Of a stretch of 42,440 nucleotides of DNA, positions 6,152-37,808 are shown piece by piece (position 1 is the stretch's first letter; the number at the start of each line of letters is the position of its first letter). The position numbers and the translations under genes were made by a program. Below the pieces are notes generated by a model that was not told the origin of the DNA, ran no database searches, and saw nothing but the letters and a program-made list of their open reading frames with translations. Source of the DNA: a bacterium (lineage in GTDB: Bacteria > UBP6 > UBA1177 > JAKLFG01); assembly GCA_029573155.1 (NCBI GenBank), contig JAKQHE010000171.1:1-42440 (forward strand), in the 5' to 3' direction.

Positions 6152-9100
6152 ATGCGCGTCCCTATCGTCACCGTTATCGCGCTTTTTTTCCTTCTGCTCG
6201 TCGTCGCCTGCGACAAGAGCGCCACGCAAGGTCCCTGCGACGGGATAGACTGCTCCGGCCACGGCACCTGCGATGCGACGAGCGGACGCGCCGTCTGCAT
6301 CTGCGACGAGAACTATCACCCGAACGGTCTCCTTGAGTGCATCGCCGACACCGATCCGTGCGAGGGGGTCGATTGCGACGAGTGGGAGAGCTGCGTGAAC
6401 GGCTCCTGCGACCCGCTCCCGGGGAAATGCAACGACAAGGACGACTGTGGGCCGAACGAGGCGTGCGAGGACCATACCTGCGTCTACCACGATCCCTGCG
6501 AGGGGATCGACTGTTCGGGCCACGGCGAGTGCACAAGCGGCTACGGCTACGGTGACGAGGTGTTCTGCGACTGCGATGAGAACTATCACGCGGTCGGGCT
6601 GGAATGTCTGCCCGGCGAGACGCCTGACGATGATCAACTGATCCCCGACGGCGACACGGTGACCGACCCCTGCGCAACGGTCACCTGCGATGAATGGAAG
6701 GAATGTTCCGGCGGTGACTGCATCCTGAAAGAGGGTCGCTGTGAAAAGAGCGATGACTGCGGCGAGGACGAGATATGCGACACGGCTGCCCACGACTGCA
6801 TCGCCGACCCCTGTCTGGCGGTGACCTGCGGTAACGGCGGCGTCTGTTCGACGAGCGGTGTGACGCCGCTGTGCAACTGCCCCGACGGCTTCATGGCGAC
6901 CGGGCTTACCTGCATCGCCGACACCGGGACGAAGATCGACTGGTGCAATGTGCAGTGGCCCCCCGCCATCGAGGCGACGGTGGGCGACGCGCCGACCCGT
7001 ACCTACAGTCAACTCTACATCGGCGGCATCACCGACGGCGGCAAGCCGCAGAACGCCGGCGTGAGCGCGCAACTGGGCTACGGCGTAAAGACGCTCACCT
7101 ACCCCATCATCCAGACCGACCTCGTATGGGTCGATGCCGATTTCAATATCACCGGCGCGGGCGATTTCGGGAACAATCACGAATACATGACCGACTTCCC
7201 GACCGCGAAGACCGGGCTGTTCAACTATATCTATCGCTACTCTCTGAATGAGGGGGCGAGTTGGTACTATTGCGACCTGAACGGCAGGATAACCTCCGGT
7301 GCGATAACGCCCGGCATCGCGACGATATCGGGCGGCGGCGATGACTGCGGCGGCGTCTCGTGCGCCGAGTGGGAATCGTGCGCCATCGATCTCTGCGAAC
7401 CGCTTCCGGGCCGCTGTAACATGAAGGCCGATTGCGAGAGCGACGAAGAGTGCGACCTCGGCACCCACTACTGCGTCAATGCGGCGGGAGTGCTCCTCCT
7501 CGACGGCGCGGTCGTGCAGGGAAGCGACGCCTACACCTTCACCGTCCGCTATGTCGGCACCGACGAACTCGATCTCGCGCAGAGCGTCGTGACGCTGAAC
7601 GGCGTCGATATCACCGCGACGCTCACCTACGATCCGACCGCGAACACCGTCACGATATCGGAAAGCGGTATCGCGCAGAAGGGGAAATACACCTATCTAT
7701 TCCGCGCCAAAAACAGCAAGGGGGCGCCGATAGAGCCGCTCTATGTGCCGCTCTGGGTCGAGACGACGCCGTTCGACTGGCGCGACGCCTTTCTCTACCA
7801 GATCATGAACGACCGGTTCCTGAACGGTGACGCGCTGAACGATCAGCCGATCGCCGGGGTCGACGCGATCCGCAACTGGATGGGCGGTGATTGGGCCGGC
7901 ATCATCGAGAAACTGGATGGCGACTACTTCACCGACCTCGGGGTGAACGCGCTCTGGATATCCTCGCCGGTCAAGAACACCGCGAAGTCGGGTAAAGGGA
8001 TGAACGACAACTATCAGTACGCGGCCTACCATTCCTACTGGCCGATCGCGACCGGTTGGACCGACACCGACCCGCTGTCGGGTCTTTCCTCGCCGCTGGA
8101 GGACCATTTCGGGACCGATGCCGAACTGCGCGAACTGGTGCAGAAGGCGCACGCCAAGGGCATCCGCGTTCTCATCGATCTCGTCGCCAACCATGTCCAC
8201 ACCGACAGCCCGCTGTGGATAGAGCATAAGAACGACGGCTGGTTCAACATGGCGCCCGACGGGAAGACGCCCAATGTGAACGGCGGCTACAACTGCGGCT
8301 GGGACGCCCCGATCGAATGTTGGTTCACCGACTATCTGCCCGACTTCGATTACCGCGACAAGGAACTGCTCGATCTGGTACTCGACCACGCGGTATGGCT
8401 GGTCCACGAATACGACTTCGACGGTTTCCGGATGGACGCGGTCAAACACATGGTGATGGGCTTCACGACCGGCACGCGGAGTCGCATCGAACAGGATATC
8501 GTGACCACCGGCATCCCGTTCTACACCGTCGGCGAGACCTTCGACGGCGACAAGATGAAGATAGCCGAATATGTCGGCGCCGACAAACTCGACGGGCAGT
8601 TCGATTTCCCGCTCTACTTTCAGGTGCGCGACATCCTGCTCCAGCATTCGCGAGGGATGAACGAACTGGCCTCTTTCGTCGCCGCGAACGACACCTACTA
8701 CACCGACCGCTGGAACGGCGCGATCATGTCGAACTTCATGGGCAACCACGATGTGACCCGTGCCCTCACCTTCGCCGGCGGCGACCACGCCCGACTGCGG
8801 ATGGCGCAGACCTTCCTCCTCACCTCGCCCGCCATCCCGCTCATCTATCAGGGCGACGACATCGGCATGGAGGGGGGCGAAGATCCCGACAACCGGCGCA
8901 TGATGGTGTTCGAGCCATCGCTTTCGACCGATCAGCGGGCGACGCTCGCTCACCTGAAGAAACTCGGCATGGCCCGCAAGGCGCATCCGGCGCTCCGCAC
9001 CGGGATCCGCACGACGCTCATCAGTGAAACGAACCTCTGGGCCTACCGGATGAAAAGCGGCGCCGACGAGGCCATCGTGATACTCAACCGCGGGGCACAG

Positions 9101-27245: not shown

Positions 27246-28952
27246 TCACTGTGCTCCGGCGTAGAGCGACGGCCAATGATCACCGCGATAGATACGCCAG
27301 CCCTGCAGGCCCTCATCCGTATCCTTGATCCCCATGTCGAACACCTTTTCCGATGCCCCCTCTCCAGGGGTGACCTCGATGACGCGCGCCGACACCTTGC
27401 AATCGAGCAGGTCGTCGGTCGGTTGACCGTCGGGTCCGTGGGTGATACCGCCGAACACGACGAGCACATTGCCGGTCGCCGGGAGTTCCGCGGCATTCCC
27501 GAGGTAGGGTGCATATATCTTCTCGCCGATGTCGCTCCCCCACTCCCAGACCTGCGTCACGGTGCGCGCCGTCTCATCGACCGAGAATATCACGGCGCGG
27601 CTCCAGTTATCCTCCGCCGGGAACATCGGTTCGTAGGGGAAGGCACGGTAGGCGCCGTTGTCGAACACCAGTACCGACCCGTCGGCGCGAAGCATCGGCC
27701 CGTGCTGGTAATAGTTCCACACGAACGGTTCACCGACCGGCGCGAGCAGAAGATCGCTCCACGGCTCCTTCCAGTTATCGTGCGGCCCGAGCAGCCATTT
27801 CAACTGACCGTCGGCACGGCCCAGTTTCAGGAGCACCGACTGGTTGCGGCTAGACACGATGAAGGAATCGTCGCTCTCGTCGTACAGCAGACCGTTGGCA
27901 TGACTCCACTGCTTGAACATCCGGATGGAGGTGTATCCGAGACGGTACGGATCGAGGATATCGAAGAGTTTCCATCTCCCGACCTCGGTCCCCTCCTTGG
28001 TCAACTCGACGATCTCGTCGGCCCGTATGCCGGTATCGGCGAGCGGTGCATCGGGATCGGTCTCGCTCGTGGGCCAGTCGGCGATATCCCGCCTTTCGTT
28101 CGCGAGTATCGCGATGTTCCCCGAAGGCAGTTCGGTCACCACATGATGAAAATCGTCCACCGCTATCGGCACGCTGAAGGTGTAGGGCGCGGCCTCGCCG
28201 ACCGGGTGCCACGCGGCGCTCACCGTGCCGAGCATGTCGAGCGCGATGATCCGCTTGGTGAACTGGACGAACATGCGACCATCGCTGAACCGGCCGAAAT
28301 CGTAACAATCACCGCCGTCACGAAAGTACCAGCCGACCCGCCCCTCCCTATCAAGAGCGACGATGAGGCATCCGTAGGTGAAATCGACCAGCGCGGTGCC
28401 TGTCGAGTGAGAGATGTTGAGAAGCGTCCATCCCTGCTCGCGACGATCCGGCGTGTTCACGGTGATATCGATCGGCGGAAGATCATCGGGAAGCGCCGGA
28501 GCATCGAGCGTGACCGGGTCTCCGACGGTGGCCCACGGCCCGTCAGGGGCGCGTACCGCGACGGCGATGCTGTTCTTGACGCCCGGGAAGAGCCCCAGTA
28601 CGGGGAACCGGTGCTCGACCGCCGGTTCGCCCAGCACCTCGGCAACGCGGCTCTCGTCGCCCGCCGTTATCGTGACGCGGACCACGGCCGGAATATCGGT
28701 CGTGAGTGTGCCGACCGCCGCGAGAGGCGCCTTATCATTGTCGTTCAGTGTTATCACCGGACCTTCGAGCGCCTGCGGTACCGGCCCATCGTCATCGGGG
28801 AGCAGGTCGTCCTCCACCTCGACGATATCTTGATCAAAGGTCCCGTCCTCTATGTCGGTTACGTCCTTGTCGTCCTTTTCCCCGTTGACAGCGCCGCCGT
28901 CGCAGGCACCGATGAAACCGACGACAAGGATCATGAGATAAAAAAAGCGCAT
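27246..28952 (-). CDS. Arylsulfotransferase (ASST)-family lipoprotein
   Basis: 568 aa; the lipobox is FIGAC (Cys17), with an Asp-rich tether at 24-56. A beta-sandwich (about 62-150) precedes the propeller. By the E. coli AssT pattern as I recall it, all four active-site residues have counterparts: His269/270 (FHHVVTELPSGN), His351 (SHANGLLYDESDD), Arg369 (IVSSRNQS, where most relatives have SRHQ) and His417 (NYYQHGPM), the residue that becomes sulfated. Known: ASST moves sulfate between phenolic compounds in the periplasm without PAPS. Here the enzyme is a lipoprotein and no dsbL/dsbI pair is nearby. A different acceptor, or a structural role for this family member, is possible. Confidence 0.85.
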   Translation of the reverse strand: MRFFYLMILVVGFIGACDGGAVNGEKDDKDVTDIEDGTFDQDIVEVEDDLLPDDDGPVPQALEGPVITLNDNDKAPLAAVGTLTTDIPAVVRVTITAGDESRVAEVLGEPAVEHRFPVLGLFPGVKNSIAVAVRAPDGPWATVGDPVTLDAPALPDDLPPIDITVNTPDRREQGWTLLNISHSTGTALVDFTYGCLIVALDREGRVGWYFRDGGDCYDFGRFSDGRMFVQFTKRIIALDMLGTVSAAWHPVGEAAPYTFSVPIAVDDFHHVVTELPSGNIAILANERRDIADWPTSETDPDAPLADTGIRADEIVELTKEGTEVGRWKLFDILDPYRLGYTSIRMFKQWSHANGLLYDESDDSFIVSSRNQSVLLKLGRADGQLKWLLGPHDNWKEPWSDLLLAPVGEPFVWNYYQHGPMLRADGSVLVFDNGAYRAFPYEPMFPAEDNWSRAVIFSVDETARTVTQVWEWGSDIGEKIYAPYLGNAAELPATGNVLVVFGGITHGPDGQPTDDLLDCKVSARVIEVTPGEGASEKVFDMGIKDTDEGLQGWRIYRGDHWPSLYAGAQ

Positions 28953-29787: not shown

Positions 29788-29834
29788 TATCAGGCACCTA
29801 AGATTTTTCTCCCCTTTCCGAGCCGCTTTTATTG

Positions 29835-29867
29835 CTAATCGTTTCTTAACCGGGTATTAACGGAAAA
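29835..29867 (+). promoter_or_regulatory. Pho-box-like operator, three 11-bp direct repeats
   Basis: CTAAT (29835), TTAAC (29846) and TTAAC (29857) recur at exactly 11-bp spacing, the layout of PhoB/PhoP/SphR sites. The last unit begins 41 nt before the start of a phosphate cotransporter gene. The second copy of that gene has the same arrangement. Confidence 0.6.
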
Positions 29868-29897
29868 CAAACTTGCTCTTCACAAAAGAGGCGGGGT

Positions 29898-31628
29898 ATG
29901 GACTGGAAAACGGTAGCGTTCGAGGTCTGCGGCGGTCTCGGCCTGTTCCTCATGGGCATGCATATCCTGTCGGAGGGCATGCAGAAGGTCTCGGGCGACC
30001 GTCTCCGCAGGATACTCGGCTTCCTCACACAAAATCGCTTTATGGCGATCTTCGTCGGGCTTTCCATCACTTCGGTCATCCAGTCGAGTTCGGCCACCAC
30101 CGTCATGGCGGTCGGCTTCGTCAACGCGAGCCTGCTGTCGCTCGAACAGGCGATCGGCGTCATCCTCGGCGCCAACATCGGCACCACCATCACCGGCTGG
30201 CTCGTGTCGCTGTCGATAGTACAGTACGCGATGGTCATCATCGCCGCCGGCGTCCTTCTGAAGTTCATCGGGCGAAACGAAACGGTGCGCTACAGCGGCG
30301 AGGCGATATTCGGACTCGGCATCCTGTTCCTCGGGATGAACCTCATGAGCGACGGTCTGGCCCCTCTGCGCGATGACAAGGAGTTCGTTTCCTTCTTCAC
30401 CAAGGTCGACGGCCGCACCTACTCCAGCGTATTCATCGGGGTTCTCATCGGCACGGTGGCGACGGCCCTTGTCCAGTCGAGTTCGGCAACGCTCGGCATC
30501 ATCATCGCGCTGGCCTCACAGGGGCTGCTTTCCTTCCCGGCAGCCATCGCGCTGGTGCTCGGCACCAATATCGGCACCACCGTCACGGCACTGTTAGCGA
30601 GCATCGGGACCAATTACCACGCTAAACGGGCCGCCGCCGCGCATATCTTGTTCAATTTCTTCGGGGTCATCATCGTCCTCATCGTCTTCTACCCCTTCCT
30701 TCGCATGGTCGACCTCTTCCTGCCGGGCGACCCCGACATGGTGATACGGACCGCTGAAGAGGCGGCGAAGTACGGTTTCGGCATCGGCGCCAAGCCACTG
30801 GCCGGCGTCCATATCGCGCTCGCCCATTCGCTGTTCAACATCACCAATGTCGTCATCTTCACCCCGCTCATCGCCTTCCTCGCCTTCGTCGTGAAGAAGA
30901 TAGTTCCTGAACCGAAGGCGAAACTGCCCAAGACGCCGCATCAGTTCGCCCACATCCACTACGGTCTCATCGCGACCCCCGCGCTGGGTATCATAGAGTC
31001 GGAAAAGGAACTCTATGCCATGGCCGAACGGGTCAAGAAGAACTCGAAGCGCATCCGCGATATCCTCGGCGGAAAACGGGAAGCGGGCACAGCGGCCGAG
31101 AAGATAGAGAAGAACGAAGAACTCATCGACGAATACCGCATGGCGATCACCGAGTTCCTCCTGTCGCTGGCGCAACGTTCGCTGTCCCGCGAAGACGCGG
31201 CGAAGGTCGGCAATTACATCACCTGCGCTCACAACCTCGAAAAATACGCCGACTATGTCACCAACATGACCCGCGTTTACCTGAAGATGAAGAGTGACAA
31301 CCTCGTCCTCTCCGATGCAGCGCGCACCTCTCTGCAAGATATCGTAAATGATATCGAGGAGTTCTACGAATCGACCATAGTCCCGTTGAGCGGGGTCGAG
31401 GTTGACGCAAAAAATTTCCTCGCTACGGCAACGATGCGTAAAAAGGAGATAAAGGATCGTATCCGCGCCGCGAAGATGGGCCATTTCCAGCGGCTTCAGG
31501 AAGGAACCTGTAGAGGAGAGGCTTCTATGTCCTATATCGATATCCTCGTCAATGTCGACGGCATGGTCTCGCAGGTCCACAATATCGCCGAAACGCTCAC
31601 GCTCTCCAAATTCTCGGGTATCGCCTGA
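29898..31628 (+). CDS. Na/Pi cotransporter with C-terminal PhoU-like domain (copy 1)
   Basis: 576 aa; ATG 29898 follows GAGGCGGGG. Two inverted Na_Pi_cotrans halves each carry the signature QSSSAT (62-67 and 193-198), each followed by a GxNIGTT loop (GANIGTT, GTNIGTT). About eight to nine membrane helices extend to residue about 345. A helical PhoU-like domain (about 365-565: ESEKELYAMAERVKKNSKRIRDIL, ITCAHNLEKYADYVTNM) fills the C-terminus. Known: such NptA/YjbB-like proteins move phosphate with sodium, inward or outward, and the PhoU part is thought to regulate. The Pho-box-like repeats upstream fit control by phosphate. It forms a tandem pair with the next gene. Confidence 0.92.
   Translation: MDWKTVAFEVCGGLGLFLMGMHILSEGMQKVSGDRLRRILGFLTQNRFMAIFVGLSITSVIQSSSATTVMAVGFVNASLLSLEQAIGVILGANIGTTITGWLVSLSIVQYAMVIIAAGVLLKFIGRNETVRYSGEAIFGLGILFLGMNLMSDGLAPLRDDKEFVSFFTKVDGRTYSSVFIGVLIGTVATALVQSSSATLGIIIALASQGLLSFPAAIALVLGTNIGTTVTALLASIGTNYHAKRAAAAHILFNFFGVIIVLIVFYPFLRMVDLFLPGDPDMVIRTAEEAAKYGFGIGAKPLAGVHIALAHSLFNITNVVIFTPLIAFLAFVVKKIVPEPKAKLPKTPHQFAHIHYGLIATPALGIIESEKELYAMAERVKKNSKRIRDILGGKREAGTAAEKIEKNEELIDEYRMAITEFLLSLAQRSLSREDAAKVGNYITCAHNLEKYADYVTNMTRVYLKMKSDNLVLSDAARTSLQDIVNDIEEFYESTIVPLSGVEVDAKNFLATATMRKKEIKDRIRAAKMGHFQRLQEGTCRGEASMSYIDILVNVDGMVSQVHNIAETLTLSKFSGIA
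30996..31060 (+). repeat. 65-nt segment identical to 32849-32913
   Basis: An exact direct repeat within the PhoU-like part of the tandem phosphate transporters. A second exact repeat of 61 nt pairs 31215-31275 with 33068-33128. Third-position differences are frequent elsewhere between the two genes. Confidence 0.85.
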
Positions 31629-31644
31629 ATACCGGAGCGAGAAA

Positions 31645-31660
31645 TTAACCGTTTTTTAAC
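31645..31660 (+). promoter_or_regulatory. Additional Pho-box-like repeat pair
   Basis: TTAAC at 31645 and TTAAC at 31656, 11 bp apart, between the tandem phosphate transporter genes. It stands 28 bp (start to start) upstream of the triple repeat at 31684, out of 11-bp phase with it. Confidence 0.4.
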
Positions 31661-31683
31661 AATCCCCTCCCTCCATTTAGTTG

Positions 31684-31716
31684 CTAATCCTTCCTTAAAC
31701 ATGTATCAACGGAACG
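31684..31716 (+). promoter_or_regulatory. Pho-box-like operator of the second phosphate transporter
   Basis: CTAAT (31684), TTAAA (31695) and TCAAC (31706), again at 11-bp steps. It aligns base for base with much of 29831-29867 (TTGCTAATC, CTTAA, GTAT, AACGGAA). The last unit lies 45 nt before the start codon. A -10-like TTATCT is at 31724-31729. Confidence 0.55.
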
Positions 31717-31750: not shown

Positions 31751-33484
31751 GTGGACTGGAAAACGATAGCGTTCGAGGTCTTCGGCGGACTTGGTCTGTT
31801 CCTTCTTGGCATGAAGATCATGTCGGAAGGCATGCAGAAGGTCGCGGGCGACCGGCTCCGCAAGGTACTTGGCTTCCTGACACAGAATCGCTTCATGGCG
31901 ATATTGGTCGGCATGACGGTCACGGCGGTCATCCAGTCGAGTTCGGCCACCACCGTCATGACCGTCGGGTTCGTCAACGCGCAACTCATGACCCTCACGC
32001 AGGCGATCGGCGTCATACTCGGCGCCAACATCGGCACCACGGTCACCGGCTGGCTCGTGTCGCTCGCGGTGGTCAAATACGCGATGGTCATCATCGGTAT
32101 CGGCGTCCTGTTGCGCTTCGCCGGTCACAACGAGACTGTTCGCTACAGTGGCGAAGCGATATCGGGACTCGGCCTGCTCTTTCTCGGCATGACCACGATG
32201 AGCGACGGACTCGCCCCTTTGCGCGACAGCCCCGGGTTCGTCCATTTCTTCACCATGGTCGACGGGGTGACCTACCCCAGTATCCTTCTCGGTGTCTTCA
32301 TCGGCACGGTGACCACCGTAGCGGTCCAGTCGAGTTCGGCCACCATCGGTATCGCCATCGCGCTCGCCACGCAGGGCCTGCTCACTTTTCCCGGCGCGGT
32401 CTCACTGATATTGGGCGACAACATCGGCACCACCATCACGGCGCTGTTGGCGAGCATCGGGACCAATCACCACGCCAAACGGGCCGCCTTCGCCCATACG
32501 ATGTTCAATGTGTTCGGCGTTGTCATCATCCTGATCATTTTCTTTCCCTTCGTCGCGCTCGTGAACACCTTCATCCCGCAGGACGCCGATCTGACGATAC
32601 GGACCGCCGAGGAGGCGGCGCGCTACGGCATGGCGATCGGCGCGAAGCCCTTCATCGGGCCCCATGTAGCCATGGCCCACACCATGTTCAATGTCACCAA
32701 CGTCATCTTCTTCACGCCGCTTATCGGCTTCCTCGCCTTTATGGTCAGGAAGATAGTGCCCGAGCCGAAGGCGAAACCGTCAAAGGGGGTCCGCCAGTTC
32801 GTTCATATCCATTACGGGCTGGTCGAAACACCTGCTTTGGGCATCCTTGAGTCGGAAAAGGAACTCTATGCCATGGCCGAACGGGTCAAGAAGAACTCGA
32901 AGCGCATCCGCGACATCCTCGGCGACAAACGCGACGCAGGCGTGGCAGCCGAAAAGATAGAGAAGAACGAGGAACTCATCGACGAATACCGCAAGGCGAT
33001 AACAGAATTCCTGCTCTCGCTCTCCCAACGGTCATTGTCGCGCGAGGATGCCGGGAAGGTCGGCAACTACATCACCTGCGCTCACAACCTCGAAAAATAC
33101 GCCGACTATGTCACCAACATGACCCGCGCCTACCTCAAGATGAAGAGTGACAACCTTATCCTTTCCGACGCGGCGCGCACCTCTCTGTACGATATCGTGA
33201 GCGACATCGAGGAGTTCTACGAAGCGACCATCGTCCCGCTCAGCGGCGTCGAGGTCGACGCGAAGAATTTCCTCGCCACCGCCACGACGCGCAAGAGGGA
33301 GATAAAGGAACGGGTGCGTGCCGCCAAGATGGGACATTTCGAGCGGCTGCAGGCAGGCACCTGCAAGGGAGAGGCCTCGATGGCCTATGTCGATATCCTC
33401 GTCAACATCGACGGCATGGTCTCACAGGTCCACAACATCGCCGAGACGCTCACGCTTTCGAAGTTCTCGGGAACCTCCGCGTAA
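31751..33484 (+). CDS. Na/Pi cotransporter with C-terminal PhoU-like domain (copy 2)
   Basis: 577 aa with GTG 31751 as start: the codon aligns with the ATG of copy 1 (both continue D-W-K-T) and GGAGAG is at 31741-31746. The GTG at 31739 would make the ribosome site coding. It has the same two QSSSAT signatures and GxNIGTT loops, and a PhoU-like tail almost identical in sequence to copy 1, with two DNA stretches of 65 and 61 nt fully identical. The membrane half is more diverged. It has its own Pho-box-like operator, so the copies can be expressed separately. Converges on sppA with an 8-nt gap. Confidence 0.92.
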   Translation: MDWKTIAFEVFGGLGLFLLGMKIMSEGMQKVAGDRLRKVLGFLTQNRFMAILVGMTVTAVIQSSSATTVMTVGFVNAQLMTLTQAIGVILGANIGTTVTGWLVSLAVVKYAMVIIGIGVLLRFAGHNETVRYSGEAISGLGLLFLGMTTMSDGLAPLRDSPGFVHFFTMVDGVTYPSILLGVFIGTVTTVAVQSSSATIGIAIALATQGLLTFPGAVSLILGDNIGTTITALLASIGTNHHAKRAAFAHTMFNVFGVVIILIIFFPFVALVNTFIPQDADLTIRTAEEAARYGMAIGAKPFIGPHVAMAHTMFNVTNVIFFTPLIGFLAFMVRKIVPEPKAKPSKGVRQFVHIHYGLVETPALGILESEKELYAMAERVKKNSKRIRDILGDKRDAGVAAEKIEKNEELIDEYRKAITEFLLSLSQRSLSREDAGKVGNYITCAHNLEKYADYVTNMTRAYLKMKSDNLILSDAARTSLYDIVSDIEEFYEATIVPLSGVEVDAKNFLATATTRKREIKERVRAAKMGHFERLQAGTCKGEASMAYVDILVNIDGMVSQVHNIAETLTLSKFSGTSA

Positions 33485-34519: not shown

Positions 34520-34966
34520 TCAGACCTCGTTGTCACTCTTGTTCTTGACCAATTGTTTCGTCAGGTTGCGGATGCGCCGGTTGAGCACCTTGATGATGCC
34601 GATGGCCACCTCGTCGCGCTGTTTCATGATCTCGTAGAAATCGTCGCGATCTATCTTGAGCAGCGTCACATCGCTCAGCGACACGACATCGGCCGAACGG
34701 GGTTGCGAGTCCAGTATCGCCATCTCACCGAAATAGCCGCCCTGCCGGATGGTATCTATCTTGCGGTCGCCCGATACGACATCCACCTCTCCCTTCACGA
34801 TGATGAACAATTCCCTTCCCAACTCGCCCTCGTGGACGATATAGGTACCACGGTCCATCGTCACCTCCTCGATGACGAACGCGATGTCGGCCAGCACCTC
34901 GCCCGGAATGTCGCTGAACAGCTCGACATTCTTGAGCGCGAGTACCTTTTCAACCGTCGTAAGCAT
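34520..34966 (-). CDS. Cyclic-nucleotide-binding domain protein
   Basis: 148 aa from ATG 34966, preceded by GGGAGGGCGATCCC. A single CAP-type cNMP-binding fold covers nearly the whole protein. The phosphate-binding cassette is intact: FGEMAILDSQPRSADV (79-94), with Glu81 and Arg90 in the positions that contact the cyclic nucleotide. No DNA-binding helix-turn-helix follows, so it is not a transcription factor. The start lies 17 nt inside the end of the NTT/HEAT transporter gene in a different frame. Inference: a ligand-sensing regulatory subunit for that transporter. Which nucleotide it binds is unknown. Confidence 0.88.
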   Translation of the reverse strand: MLTTVEKVLALKNVELFSDIPGEVLADIAFVIEEVTMDRGTYIVHEGELGRELFIIVKGEVDVVSGDRKIDTIRQGGYFGEMAILDSQPRSADVVSLSDVTLLKIDRDDFYEIMKQRDEVAIGIIKVLNRRIRNLTKQLVKNKSDNEV

Positions 34967-37808
34967 GGGATCGCCCTCCCGTTCCATCAAAGGTGATCTG
35001 ACAGCCGGCGGCCTTGTACCACGCCGCGTAGCTCGAAACATTCTTGGCGCCGTCGCTGAGCAGGAAATTCACATCGTCGTCGGAGACCGACGTACCGAGC
35101 CGCATCGCGGCGAACAGGGCCGATTCACGGACGAGCGGCGACGGATCGTACAGGAACAGCATGACCTTGTCACCCATCTCGACGACCTCTTCCACCGCGA
35201 TGAGGTGCAGGGTCACCGCGCGCACCCAATCGTTGTCGTCGGTCAGGAATATCTCAAGGATGTGCTGGTACTCTGGGGTCTTTATCTTGAACGCGGCGAA
35301 GCCCTGCGCGAGTTTCTCCTGCTCGTCTATCGCTTCGATGAGCGGCACGAGCACGCGCCGGATATCCTTGTCGACGATGTTGTCGACCAGTTCGACCGCT
35401 GTCGAGCGCTGTTCTTTCGAAACATAGCGCTGAGAGATGTTGAAATAGATGGAATCGAAGAGTTTCTGGCCGTACATGATGGAAAGGAGCGAGAATATCC
35501 GCTGGAGGCACGAGAGCAGTTTGGTGTCTATCACATCGGAAAGATAGGACAGATCGGTCTTTGCCCGCATGGATGACTTATAGTAAAGCTGCTGGAAATA
35601 CAAGTAGAATTCGCGGAACAGGTGCCGCCTGAGGGTCTCCTGACTGATGAGGACATGGTAATCGGTGCGCATCATGATACGCTTGAGACTTTCGAGCAGG
35701 ACATTGCGTAGTTCGTCAGATTTATCGCCCAGATTGTCCATGAGTACCGGAATGACCTCGCGCGAGGATATCTCGCCAAGCATCTTGGCGACCGCCATTT
35801 TGAGTTCGAAATTCTCGAGCGCGTTATCCAGAACGCTCTTCGCCGGCTCGATGATGCGCTCGCCGAAACCGGCCAACGCCTTGGACACCTCGAGACTCAC
35901 CGGTTTATCGAGCAACATGAAGAACAGTTTCGGTATGAAGACCTCTGACCGCATCTTGGTCGTCGCCTTGACCGCCTCGCGGCGTACCTGCGGGTCACGA
36001 TCGCTTAAGAACTCGAACACCTGTTGCTGCATGTTCTGCTGACCGATCTCGCCGAGGATATAGGCCGCCGCGACGCGCCGTTCGGGATCGGGCGATTCGG
36101 CCAACTGCTTGAGGTACGGGGCCGCCGTCATAATGCCCGATATGCCGCAGTATTTGATGAGCGCGATGACCGCCGCCGAGAGTATCTGCAGGTTCGGGTT
36201 CTCGAGGAAGGTCGCTATGTACCGGTGCGACTTCTCCATCTGCATGTAGCCGTAGGTCAGTATTGCATCCTTGAGCACCTCGTCGCTCCCGCTCTTCATG
36301 AGTTTGAGTATCTCGAAAGTGTAGAAACGGGACTCCATGGTCCGCAGGATGCGCAGTATCTTGGTCTTTATCTTGGGAGAGACATCTTCGGACAGGAGCG
36401 GCAGGAAATAGCGACCGAGATAGAAATAACGCCCTTTTTCTATCATGTCGAGCGCCATGAGCACTTCGTCGTCGTTCTCTGAGGTCATCGCCTCGACGAT
36501 GATGGATTCTATCATGTTCTGCCGAACGGTCACATCTTCGTTACCGAGCCGTTTCTTTTTGATGTTATCCTGCAGGACGAGAAGGTATTCTTTCCGAAGC
36601 AGGAGTATCGTGGTTATCCACGCCGCACCAAATATGACGACGACGATGCTGATGAAACGGTGATCGACCCCAAGGTAGGTCATCCCGTAGATGGCGAGGC
36701 CGGCGACGCCGGCGATGAGTGGCTTGAGGATGCCGTCTATCACCGCCTTGGCACGGCTCCGCAACTTGGGGTCGACCGGGATGTAGAGCAGTTGCACCGC
36801 CGCGTCGTTCACGGTGTAGCGGAAGGCGAAATCAGAGGCGCGCGCCATCGTGATGAACCAGATACCCGGTATCAGGAAGAACATCGCCGAGAACCCGGTG
36901 ATCATCGCGGGCAGGATGAGCAGACTCAGGAATATGCTCCAGCGCAGGAGCCACGAGGTGGCGATGAGTTGGAAGAACAGCGAGAAGAAGCCGCTCGCGA
37001 AGGCGTAGACCATGCCGAAGAACCCCGCCAGTTCCTTTTCCGAGAAATGCTCCCTCGCCTCCATCTTGAACTGGTAGTCCACGAAGTTCACGATGATAAA
37101 GGTGACGACGGTCACCAGAGCGATATAGCGGAAATAGGGCTGGGTGAAAAGACTTACCGGCGCGTGTCTGGCGGTCTTCTGGACCGACCGTATCACGACG
37201 CTCCGCTGGAGTTTTGACTTGTAGGTCTCCCCCATCCGGCGCACGAGGTAGAGGCACAACACCATGAAGAGCGCGTTGATGAACAGCAAGTTCTCGACCT
37301 TGACCAGATGGACGAGCCACTTGACCGAATAGCCGGCCACGAGGCTCGCGATGATGCCGCCGATGCCTATGAAACTGAGTATCCGTTTCGCCTCGCGTGA
37401 GTCGAGCAGTTCGTTGGTGAACGACCAGAATTGGAAGGTCATGAAAGCGCCGATGACCTCGACGAGGATGTAAAGTCCCGGATAACTGAACTGGAATCCG
37501 ACATGGATGAGCCCGATGAACACGACGGTGAGCGAGATGCTCAGGAACAGGATGGTGCTGATGAGGGTATCGAGCCGGTATAGCGAACTGCGCCGCGTGT
37601 AGAGCCAGGTGAGCATCGAAACGCTTGCGGCGACAAAGATGTACATGAGCGGCAGTTGCGAGACATCGTACCGTTTCAGGAACAGCGTATCGCGGACGAT
37701 GCGGCCCTGCACATAGGTAGCGACGACGAGGAAATTGTACAGGAACAGGAGCCCGGCGCGGGTCTGCTCCTCCTCGCGGATGTTGAACAACCGGTAGATG
37801 AGCTTCAT
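34950..37808 (-). CDS. NTT-family (ATP/ADP translocase-like) transporter fused to a HEAT-repeat domain
   Basis: 952 aa. Residues 1-410 have about eleven to twelve hydrophobic helices, with features of the nucleotide transporter (Tlc/NTT) family: an N-terminal REEEQTRAGLLFLYNF segment, and RASDFAFRYTVNDAAVQLLYIPVD followed by KAVIDGILKP. Residues about 425-940 are soluble and helical, with HEAT-like pairs (DDEVLMALDMIEKG, SPDPERRVAAAYILGEIG, DRDPQVRREAVKAT, PSPLVRESALFAAMRLG). Known: NTT proteins exchange ATP/ADP in intracellular parasites and plastids; versions with HEAT repeats occur in free-living bacteria and their cargo is not settled. The start overlaps trmL by 4 nt and the end overlaps the cNMP-binding gene by 17 nt. 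Confidence 0.85.
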   Translation of the reverse strand: MKLIYRLFNIREEEQTRAGLLFLYNFLVVATYVQGRIVRDTLFLKRYDVSQLPLMYIFVAASVSMLTWLYTRRSSLYRLDTLISTILFLSISLTVVFIGLIHVGFQFSYPGLYILVEVIGAFMTFQFWSFTNELLDSREAKRILSFIGIGGIIASLVAGYSVKWLVHLVKVENLLFINALFMVLCLYLVRRMGETYKSKLQRSVVIRSVQKTARHAPVSLFTQPYFRYIALVTVVTFIIVNFVDYQFKMEAREHFSEKELAGFFGMVYAFASGFFSLFFQLIATSWLLRWSIFLSLLILPAMITGFSAMFFLIPGIWFITMARASDFAFRYTVNDAAVQLLYIPVDPKLRSRAKAVIDGILKPLIAGVAGLAIYGMTYLGVDHRFISIVVVIFGAAWITTILLLRKEYLLVLQDNIKKKRLGNEDVTVRQNMIESIIVEAMTSENDDEVLMALDMIEKGRYFYLGRYFLPLLSEDVSPKIKTKILRILRTMESRFYTFEILKLMKSGSDEVLKDAILTYGYMQMEKSHRYIATFLENPNLQILSAAVIALIKYCGISGIMTAAPYLKQLAESPDPERRVAAAYILGEIGQQNMQQQVFEFLSDRDPQVRREAVKATTKMRSEVFIPKLFFMLLDKPVSLEVSKALAGFGERIIEPAKSVLDNALENFELKMAVAKMLGEISSREVIPVLMDNLGDKSDELRNVLLESLKRIMMRTDYHVLISQETLRRHLFREFYLYFQQLYYKSSMRAKTDLSYLSDVIDTKLLSCLQRIFSLLSIMYGQKLFDSIYFNISQRYVSKEQRSTAVELVDNIVDKDIRRVLVPLIEAIDEQEKLAQGFAAFKIKTPEYQHILEIFLTDDNDWVRAVTLHLIAVEEVVEMGDKVMLFLYDPSPLVRESALFAAMRLGTSVSDDDVNFLLSDGAKNVSSYAAWYKAAGCQITFDGTGGRSHAYDG

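Follow-up and report, generated by a model that had tools for sequence, protein, structure and literature searches.

Candidate Pho boxes upstream of a tandem pair of NptA-PhoU phosphate transporter genes in an uncultured bacterial lineage

The PhoP box of Bacillus subtilis, TTAACA, occurs as tandem repeats about 11 bp apart. Pho boxes are described as 11-nt direct repeats whose word differs among species in the available part of one source (PMC4415409). In the available part of a second source (PMC1906773), the Escherichia coli PhoB box is followed, 10 bp on, by a -10 element of the form TAN3T/A, and the SphR box of Synechocystis PCC6803 and other cyanobacteria consists of three 8-bp CTTAACCT repeats with 3-bp linkers, found before pst and phosphatase genes. 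According to the accessible portion of PMC13170248, Staphylococcus aureus requires PhoPR to express nptA, this expression increases when phosphate drops, and the PhoU domain of the protein contributes to NptA control. NptA of Streptococcus pneumoniae is called a low-affinity system in the accessible portion of PMC4913102.

The window, that is, the whole 42,440-nt stretch of DNA analysed here, is contig C128 of a draft genome (G000, "own genome" below; 2,685,084 bases, 288 contigs, 92.9% complete). It carries two tandem genes, nptA1 and nptA2, which are 79% identical (Table 1). Both genes exceed the cut-offs for PF02690, TIGR00704 and PF01895 and thus encode, by sequence, NptA-type Na/Pi cotransporters with a PhoU domain, the identity already proposed in the first-pass annotation. 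The longest reading frame of nptA2 opens at GTG 31739; GTG 31751 was taken as its start because the N-terminus MDWKT/VDWKT is common to both proteins. The genome has a third Na/Pi paralog, on contig C81, for which the presence of a box was judged solely by the absence of C81 from the match lists for the YTAAY pair described below. Elsewhere in the window, an arylsulfotransferase (ASST) family gene lies upstream of the transporter pair (27246-28952, minus strand), and a 952-aa protein (34950-37808, minus strand) combines HEAT repeats with a TLC ATP/ADP-transporter domain.

Each transporter gene is preceded by an array of short direct repeats, and both arrays open with TTGCTAATC. The period inside every array of the window is exactly 11 bp. 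The third repeat lies 41 nt from the ATG of nptA1 at 29898 in array 1 and 45 nt from the GTG of nptA2 in array 2. A distal pair of repeats lies 39 bp 5' of array 2 and is not in 11-bp phase with it. The first-pass annotation had given these repeat coordinates, the 11-bp period, the two start-codon distances and the extra TTAAC pair; direct reading and pattern search bear out the arrays and the pair, and the distances hold given the nptA2 start at GTG 31751. It is highly probable that the repeats are PhoB-type Pho boxes and that the tandem NptA-PhoU transporters are members of the Pho regulon; PhoB binding, activation under phosphate scarcity and the response to phosphate are what we infer from the DNA.

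Table 1. Transporter genes, PhoU domains and putative Pho boxes of the window and of the pst/pho contig C130 of the same genome
Feature	Location	Strand	Sequence, evidence or remark
Putative Pho-box array 1, upstream of nptA1	29835..29861	+	CTAAT-N6-TTAAC-N6-TTAAC; three 11-bp direct repeats (CTAAT 29835, TTAAC 29846, TTAAC 29857); direct reading and pattern search
nptA1	29898..31628	+	Na/Pi cotransporter with C-terminal PhoU domain, 576 aa; PF02690, TIGR00704
PhoU domain of nptA1, residues 374-458	31017..31271	+	PF01895, 30.9 bits (cut-off 23.5)
Putative distal Pho-box pair	31645..31660	+	TTAAC-N6-TTAAC (TTAAC 31645, TTAAC 31656); pattern search
Putative Pho-box array 2, upstream of nptA2	31684..31710	+	CTAAT-N6-TTAAA-N6-TCAAC (CTAAT 31684, TTAAA 31695, TCAAC 31706); two repeats degenerate; direct reading and pattern search
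nptA2	31751..33484	+	Tandem paralog of nptA1; start GTG 31751 chosen by homology
PhoU domain of nptA2, residues 378-462 (ORF from 31739)	32870..33124	+	PF01895, 31.2 bits (cut-off 23.5)
Putative box before pstC	C130		TTAAC-N6-CTAAC-N6-TTAAC
Putative box before pstS	C130		CTCAT-N6-TTAAT-N6-TTAAC
Putative box before phoB	C130		CTAAC-N6-TTAAC
Putative box before porin	C130		TTAAT-N6-CTAAC

A search of the window with the three-box pattern, allowing up to three mismatches, returned 4 matches against 0.13 expected (sd 0.39), a number reached by none of 100 shuffles. One of these matches is merely the first site read again in antisense; another, at 7267, is weak and chance-like. The TTAAC two-box pattern with at most one mismatch gave 2 matches in the window alone, which is not significant (6 of 100 shuffles reach 2).

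TTAAC-N6-TTAAC matches twice genome-wide, once before each Na/Pi-PhoU gene of the window, and the reversed pattern has no match genome-wide. The degenerate form YTAAY-N6-YTAAY has 10 matches, three of them in the window, five on C130 and one each on C158 and C182. Eight of the ten precede phosphate-cluster genes (the window pair and C130), and outside C128 a single contig of 12,557 bp, C130, holds five of the seven. The two matches on C158 (6285-6300, L073) and C182 (3112-3127, L074) are intergenic and each stands beside a glutamate-dehydrogenase-family gene; a trkA-like gene is also among their neighbours.

YTAAY pairs over gaps of 0-20 number 65, of which 10 fall at gap 6; the other gaps have a mean of 2.75 and a maximum of 6. 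The reversed two-box control at gap 6 also yields 10 matches, because YAATY is the commoner word (239 pairs against 65 over gaps 0-20). Since the word frequencies are unmatched, the spacer spectrum was used instead of this control, and gap 6 takes 10 of the 65 YTAAY pairs versus 10 of the 239 YAATY pairs (Fisher p = 0.003). Genome-wide, the three-box pattern with two mismatches shows no overall excess (23 matches versus 21 for the reversed control), and therefore further regulon members of the own genome could not be listed from this pattern; all six genome matches with 0-1 mismatch lie on C128 or C130. A sequence-only covariance model from ten nptA sites found the window's own sites and no pst sites (E <= 10); such a model is unfit as a held-out test and may be governed mainly by its spacer and flank columns.

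Contig C130 carries pstC, pstA, pstB and phoU on one strand, followed by a phoR-like kinase gene that runs off the contig edge. The pstS gene is divergent, and beyond it a PhoB-like response regulator gene at 6529-7227 and a Porin_5 gene lie on the pstC strand. The first-pass annotation had expected the repeat to be enriched before other phosphate genes, and this is what the scan returned: it precedes pstC, pstS, phoB and the porin gene, as well as orthologs in relatives. The best NCBIfam model for the PhoB-like protein is TIGR02154, at 253.6 bits and under the cut-off of 296.2; in an alignment of 230 positions it shares 44% identity with E. coli PhoB. The PhoR-like kinase, its gene truncated by the contig end, scores 276.7 bits, under a cut-off of 334.2.

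An NptA homolog was present in 45 of the 80 genomes searched (own included), and the best in-register three-box array in the 160 nt upstream of nptA was scored with 500 shuffles each. Arrays without mismatch were found in G000, G004, G018, G022, G014 and G015 (0/500 shuffles as good), with one mismatch in G002 (2/500) and with two in G003 (3/500). In genus g4, none of the 14 readable genomes has an nptA array (best 3-5 mismatches; at least 106/500 shuffles as good). Thus, wherever a PstS or PhoB ortholog is encoded and the region upstream of nptA can be read, an nptA array is present (8/8 genomes, counting the own one), and among genomes with neither ortholog it is present in 0/14 (Fisher p = 3e-6, uncorrected for shared descent); the 14 box-less genomes form a single genus, so that this contrast reflects about one evolutionary event. 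It leaves out G001 (nptA upstream region off the contig), G006 (no nptA match), G024 (fragment only), G025-G027 (another family) and far genomes. Within the phylum, 8 of 28 genomes have PstS orthologs and 7 of 28 have PhoB orthologs (at least 56% identity). For the PhoR-like kinase, the search covered ten Pho-positive genomes, with scores of 270-330 bits, and four g4 genomes, none of which exceeded 153.

Beyond nptA, boxes precede pstS and/or pstC in 8/8 genomes with pstS, and they precede phoB and the porin gene in the own genome, G001, G002 and G004. Among ten nptA arrays, identity is 84% in box columns versus 62.5% in spacer columns and 53% in flanks. A strict three-box scan of the 28 genomes gave 15 matches in the ten Pho-positive genomes (reversed 7), and 12 of these lie at npt or pst genes. 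Of the remaining three, one lies at a contig end (G018:C104), one beside a gene that matches no Pfam family (G018:C267) and one beside a calcineurin-like phosphoesterase gene (G015:C262). The same scan gave 1 match in 15 g4 genomes (reversed 5) and 6 in three f4 genomes (reversed 13). The Pho-box reading offered at first pass, in which the DNA signal matches the gene function, is therefore supported by the position of the repeat before pst/pho genes, by its conservation in relatives and by its co-occurrence with pst/pho across the order.

In G014 (C14:14641-14718) and G015 (C270:628-705), two complete three-box arrays, 51 bp apart, stand before a second nptA copy near pstS. In G018 (C246:3-2435), phoB lies immediately 3' of nptA on the same strand. 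In a Spirochaetaceae MAG (L031, in the 220 bases preceding 6001), an NptA homolog of 35% identity is preceded by four 11-bp repeats in register, the first three with TTAAT and the last with TTAAC.

Tandem genes with 79% identity, arrays that share their opening and the degenerate repeats TTAAA and TCAAC would also fit another history, in which array 2 is a mere leftover of the tandem duplication and array 1 alone is functional. We consider this unlikely, because a separate intact pair (31645/31656) stands before nptA2 and is kept in G004 as TTAAC-N6-CTAAC (L027:7748), and the tandem pair of G004 (L027) likewise has an array before copy 2, a counterpart of array 2 at the same place.

Promoter geometry bears on the direction of control. 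Of 30 arrays from the own and related genomes, 17 have TAnnnW exactly 10 nt beyond the last repeat, and at each of the other gaps from 0 to 24 it stands in at most three; the 17 arrays are not independent, since they belong to a small number of promoter families (pstC, porin, pstS, one phoB, one nptA). For the own phoB array and the pstS arrays of G014 and G015, the repeat counted as the last lies 22 bases further along. The own pstC, porin and phoB promoters have TAnnnW at this gap, and the own pstS has TAATAC there, which is TA but not TAnnnW. No TAnnnW occurs within the 30 nt scanned at the nptA1 and nptA2 promoters of the window, which do not show the E. coli-type 10-nt geometry; nptA2 has only TTATCT, about 13 nt after the last repeat. 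This departure from the pst and porin promoters, together with the low affinity given for S. pneumoniae NptA in the available text of PMC4913102, could mean that the PhoB-like regulator binds the boxes but represses the nptA genes as low-affinity transporters for phosphate-rich growth. Such repression is decidedly improbable, as the window arrays sit shortly before the start codon, like those at the genome's other Pho promoters, and S. aureus nptA needs PhoPR for expression, which increases when phosphate drops (PMC13170248, available portion).

The phoB, pstS and pstC genes themselves have boxes in front of them, and the boxes track the presence of pst/pho genes, which makes it very improbable that they are read by a different OmpR-family regulator rather than the phosphate one, even though the genome encodes another regulator that shares 41% identity with the PhoB-like protein and three genomes have boxes but no PhoB ortholog that was detected. 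These three (G003, G014 and G015) have pstS and a PhoR-like kinase in addition to the boxes, and the PhoB ortholog was not found in the draft assemblies. A chance origin in AT-rich intergenic sequence, which the two-box pattern by itself would permit within the window, where it is not significant, is refuted by the near-restriction of the boxes to phosphate promoters genome-wide, the 11-bp spacing peak and conservation.

PhoB-type activation is accordingly the reading that we prefer, and box position and conservation suggest its mechanism. Under phosphate scarcity, the PhoR-like kinase would phosphorylate the PhoB-like response regulator, whose winged-helix domains would bind the 11-bp repeats head-to-tail just upstream of the promoter. 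The bound regulator would then help RNA polymerase to start both Na/Pi-PhoU genes, and pstS, pstCAB-phoU-phoR, phoB itself and the porin gene would be co-activated. By analogy with S. aureus NptA, the fused PhoU domains may damp PhoR/PhoB signalling once phosphate enters. Both pump genes very probably belong to the ordinary phosphate-starvation response, a conclusion that is well supported and unsurprising. A further idea is tentative and rather doubtful: two starvation-induced Na/Pi transporters might carry their own shut-down sensors, the PhoU fusions acting beside the PhoU of the pst operon in a three-way feedback, and the box-promoter spacing of the nptA genes, which differs from that of pst, might set a different phosphate switching level. 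For a lineage known here only from draft genomes, the analysis provides a short list of Pho-regulon genes and an operator consensus, YTAAY with an 11-bp period and often in three copies. It also indicates that a guess read from the bare letters of one stretch can be confirmed by a scan of the genome and its relatives.

Compared with described systems, the boxes resemble the B. subtilis PhoP box in their TTAAC core and tandem repeats about 11 bp apart. Alignment of the recognition helix with E. coli PhoB places Q, L and N at the positions of H198, R200 and R201, while R193, R203, T217 and R219 are kept; all seven E. coli positions are ones that we take to be DNA contacts. This pattern would be consistent with an unchanged 11-bp grip on a different core word. 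The 11-nt direct repeats are shared with the E. coli PhoB box, as is the 10-bp spacing from box to -10 element, here before pst and porin genes (PMC1906773 and PMC4415409, available portions); unlike the E. coli core CTGTCAT, the core here is YTAAY. The closest documented word met here, in the accessible text of PMC1906773, is the SphR box, which is like the window boxes in its 11-bp period and TTAAC core. In contrast to the SphR box, the first base here is Y (CTAAY/TTAAY), the bases after TAAY are unconserved, and NptA-PhoU genes carry the box. As in S. aureus, a Na/Pi transporter with a PhoU domain is probably linked here to a phosphate two-component system (PMC13170248, in part); here, unlike S. 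aureus nptA, there is a tandem pair, each with a box array of its own and known from sequence alone. Pho boxes of this kind and PhoPR-dependent NptA are already known, and the addition is a further case, in an uncultured lineage, that ties Na/Pi-PhoU transporters to the phosphate two-component system.
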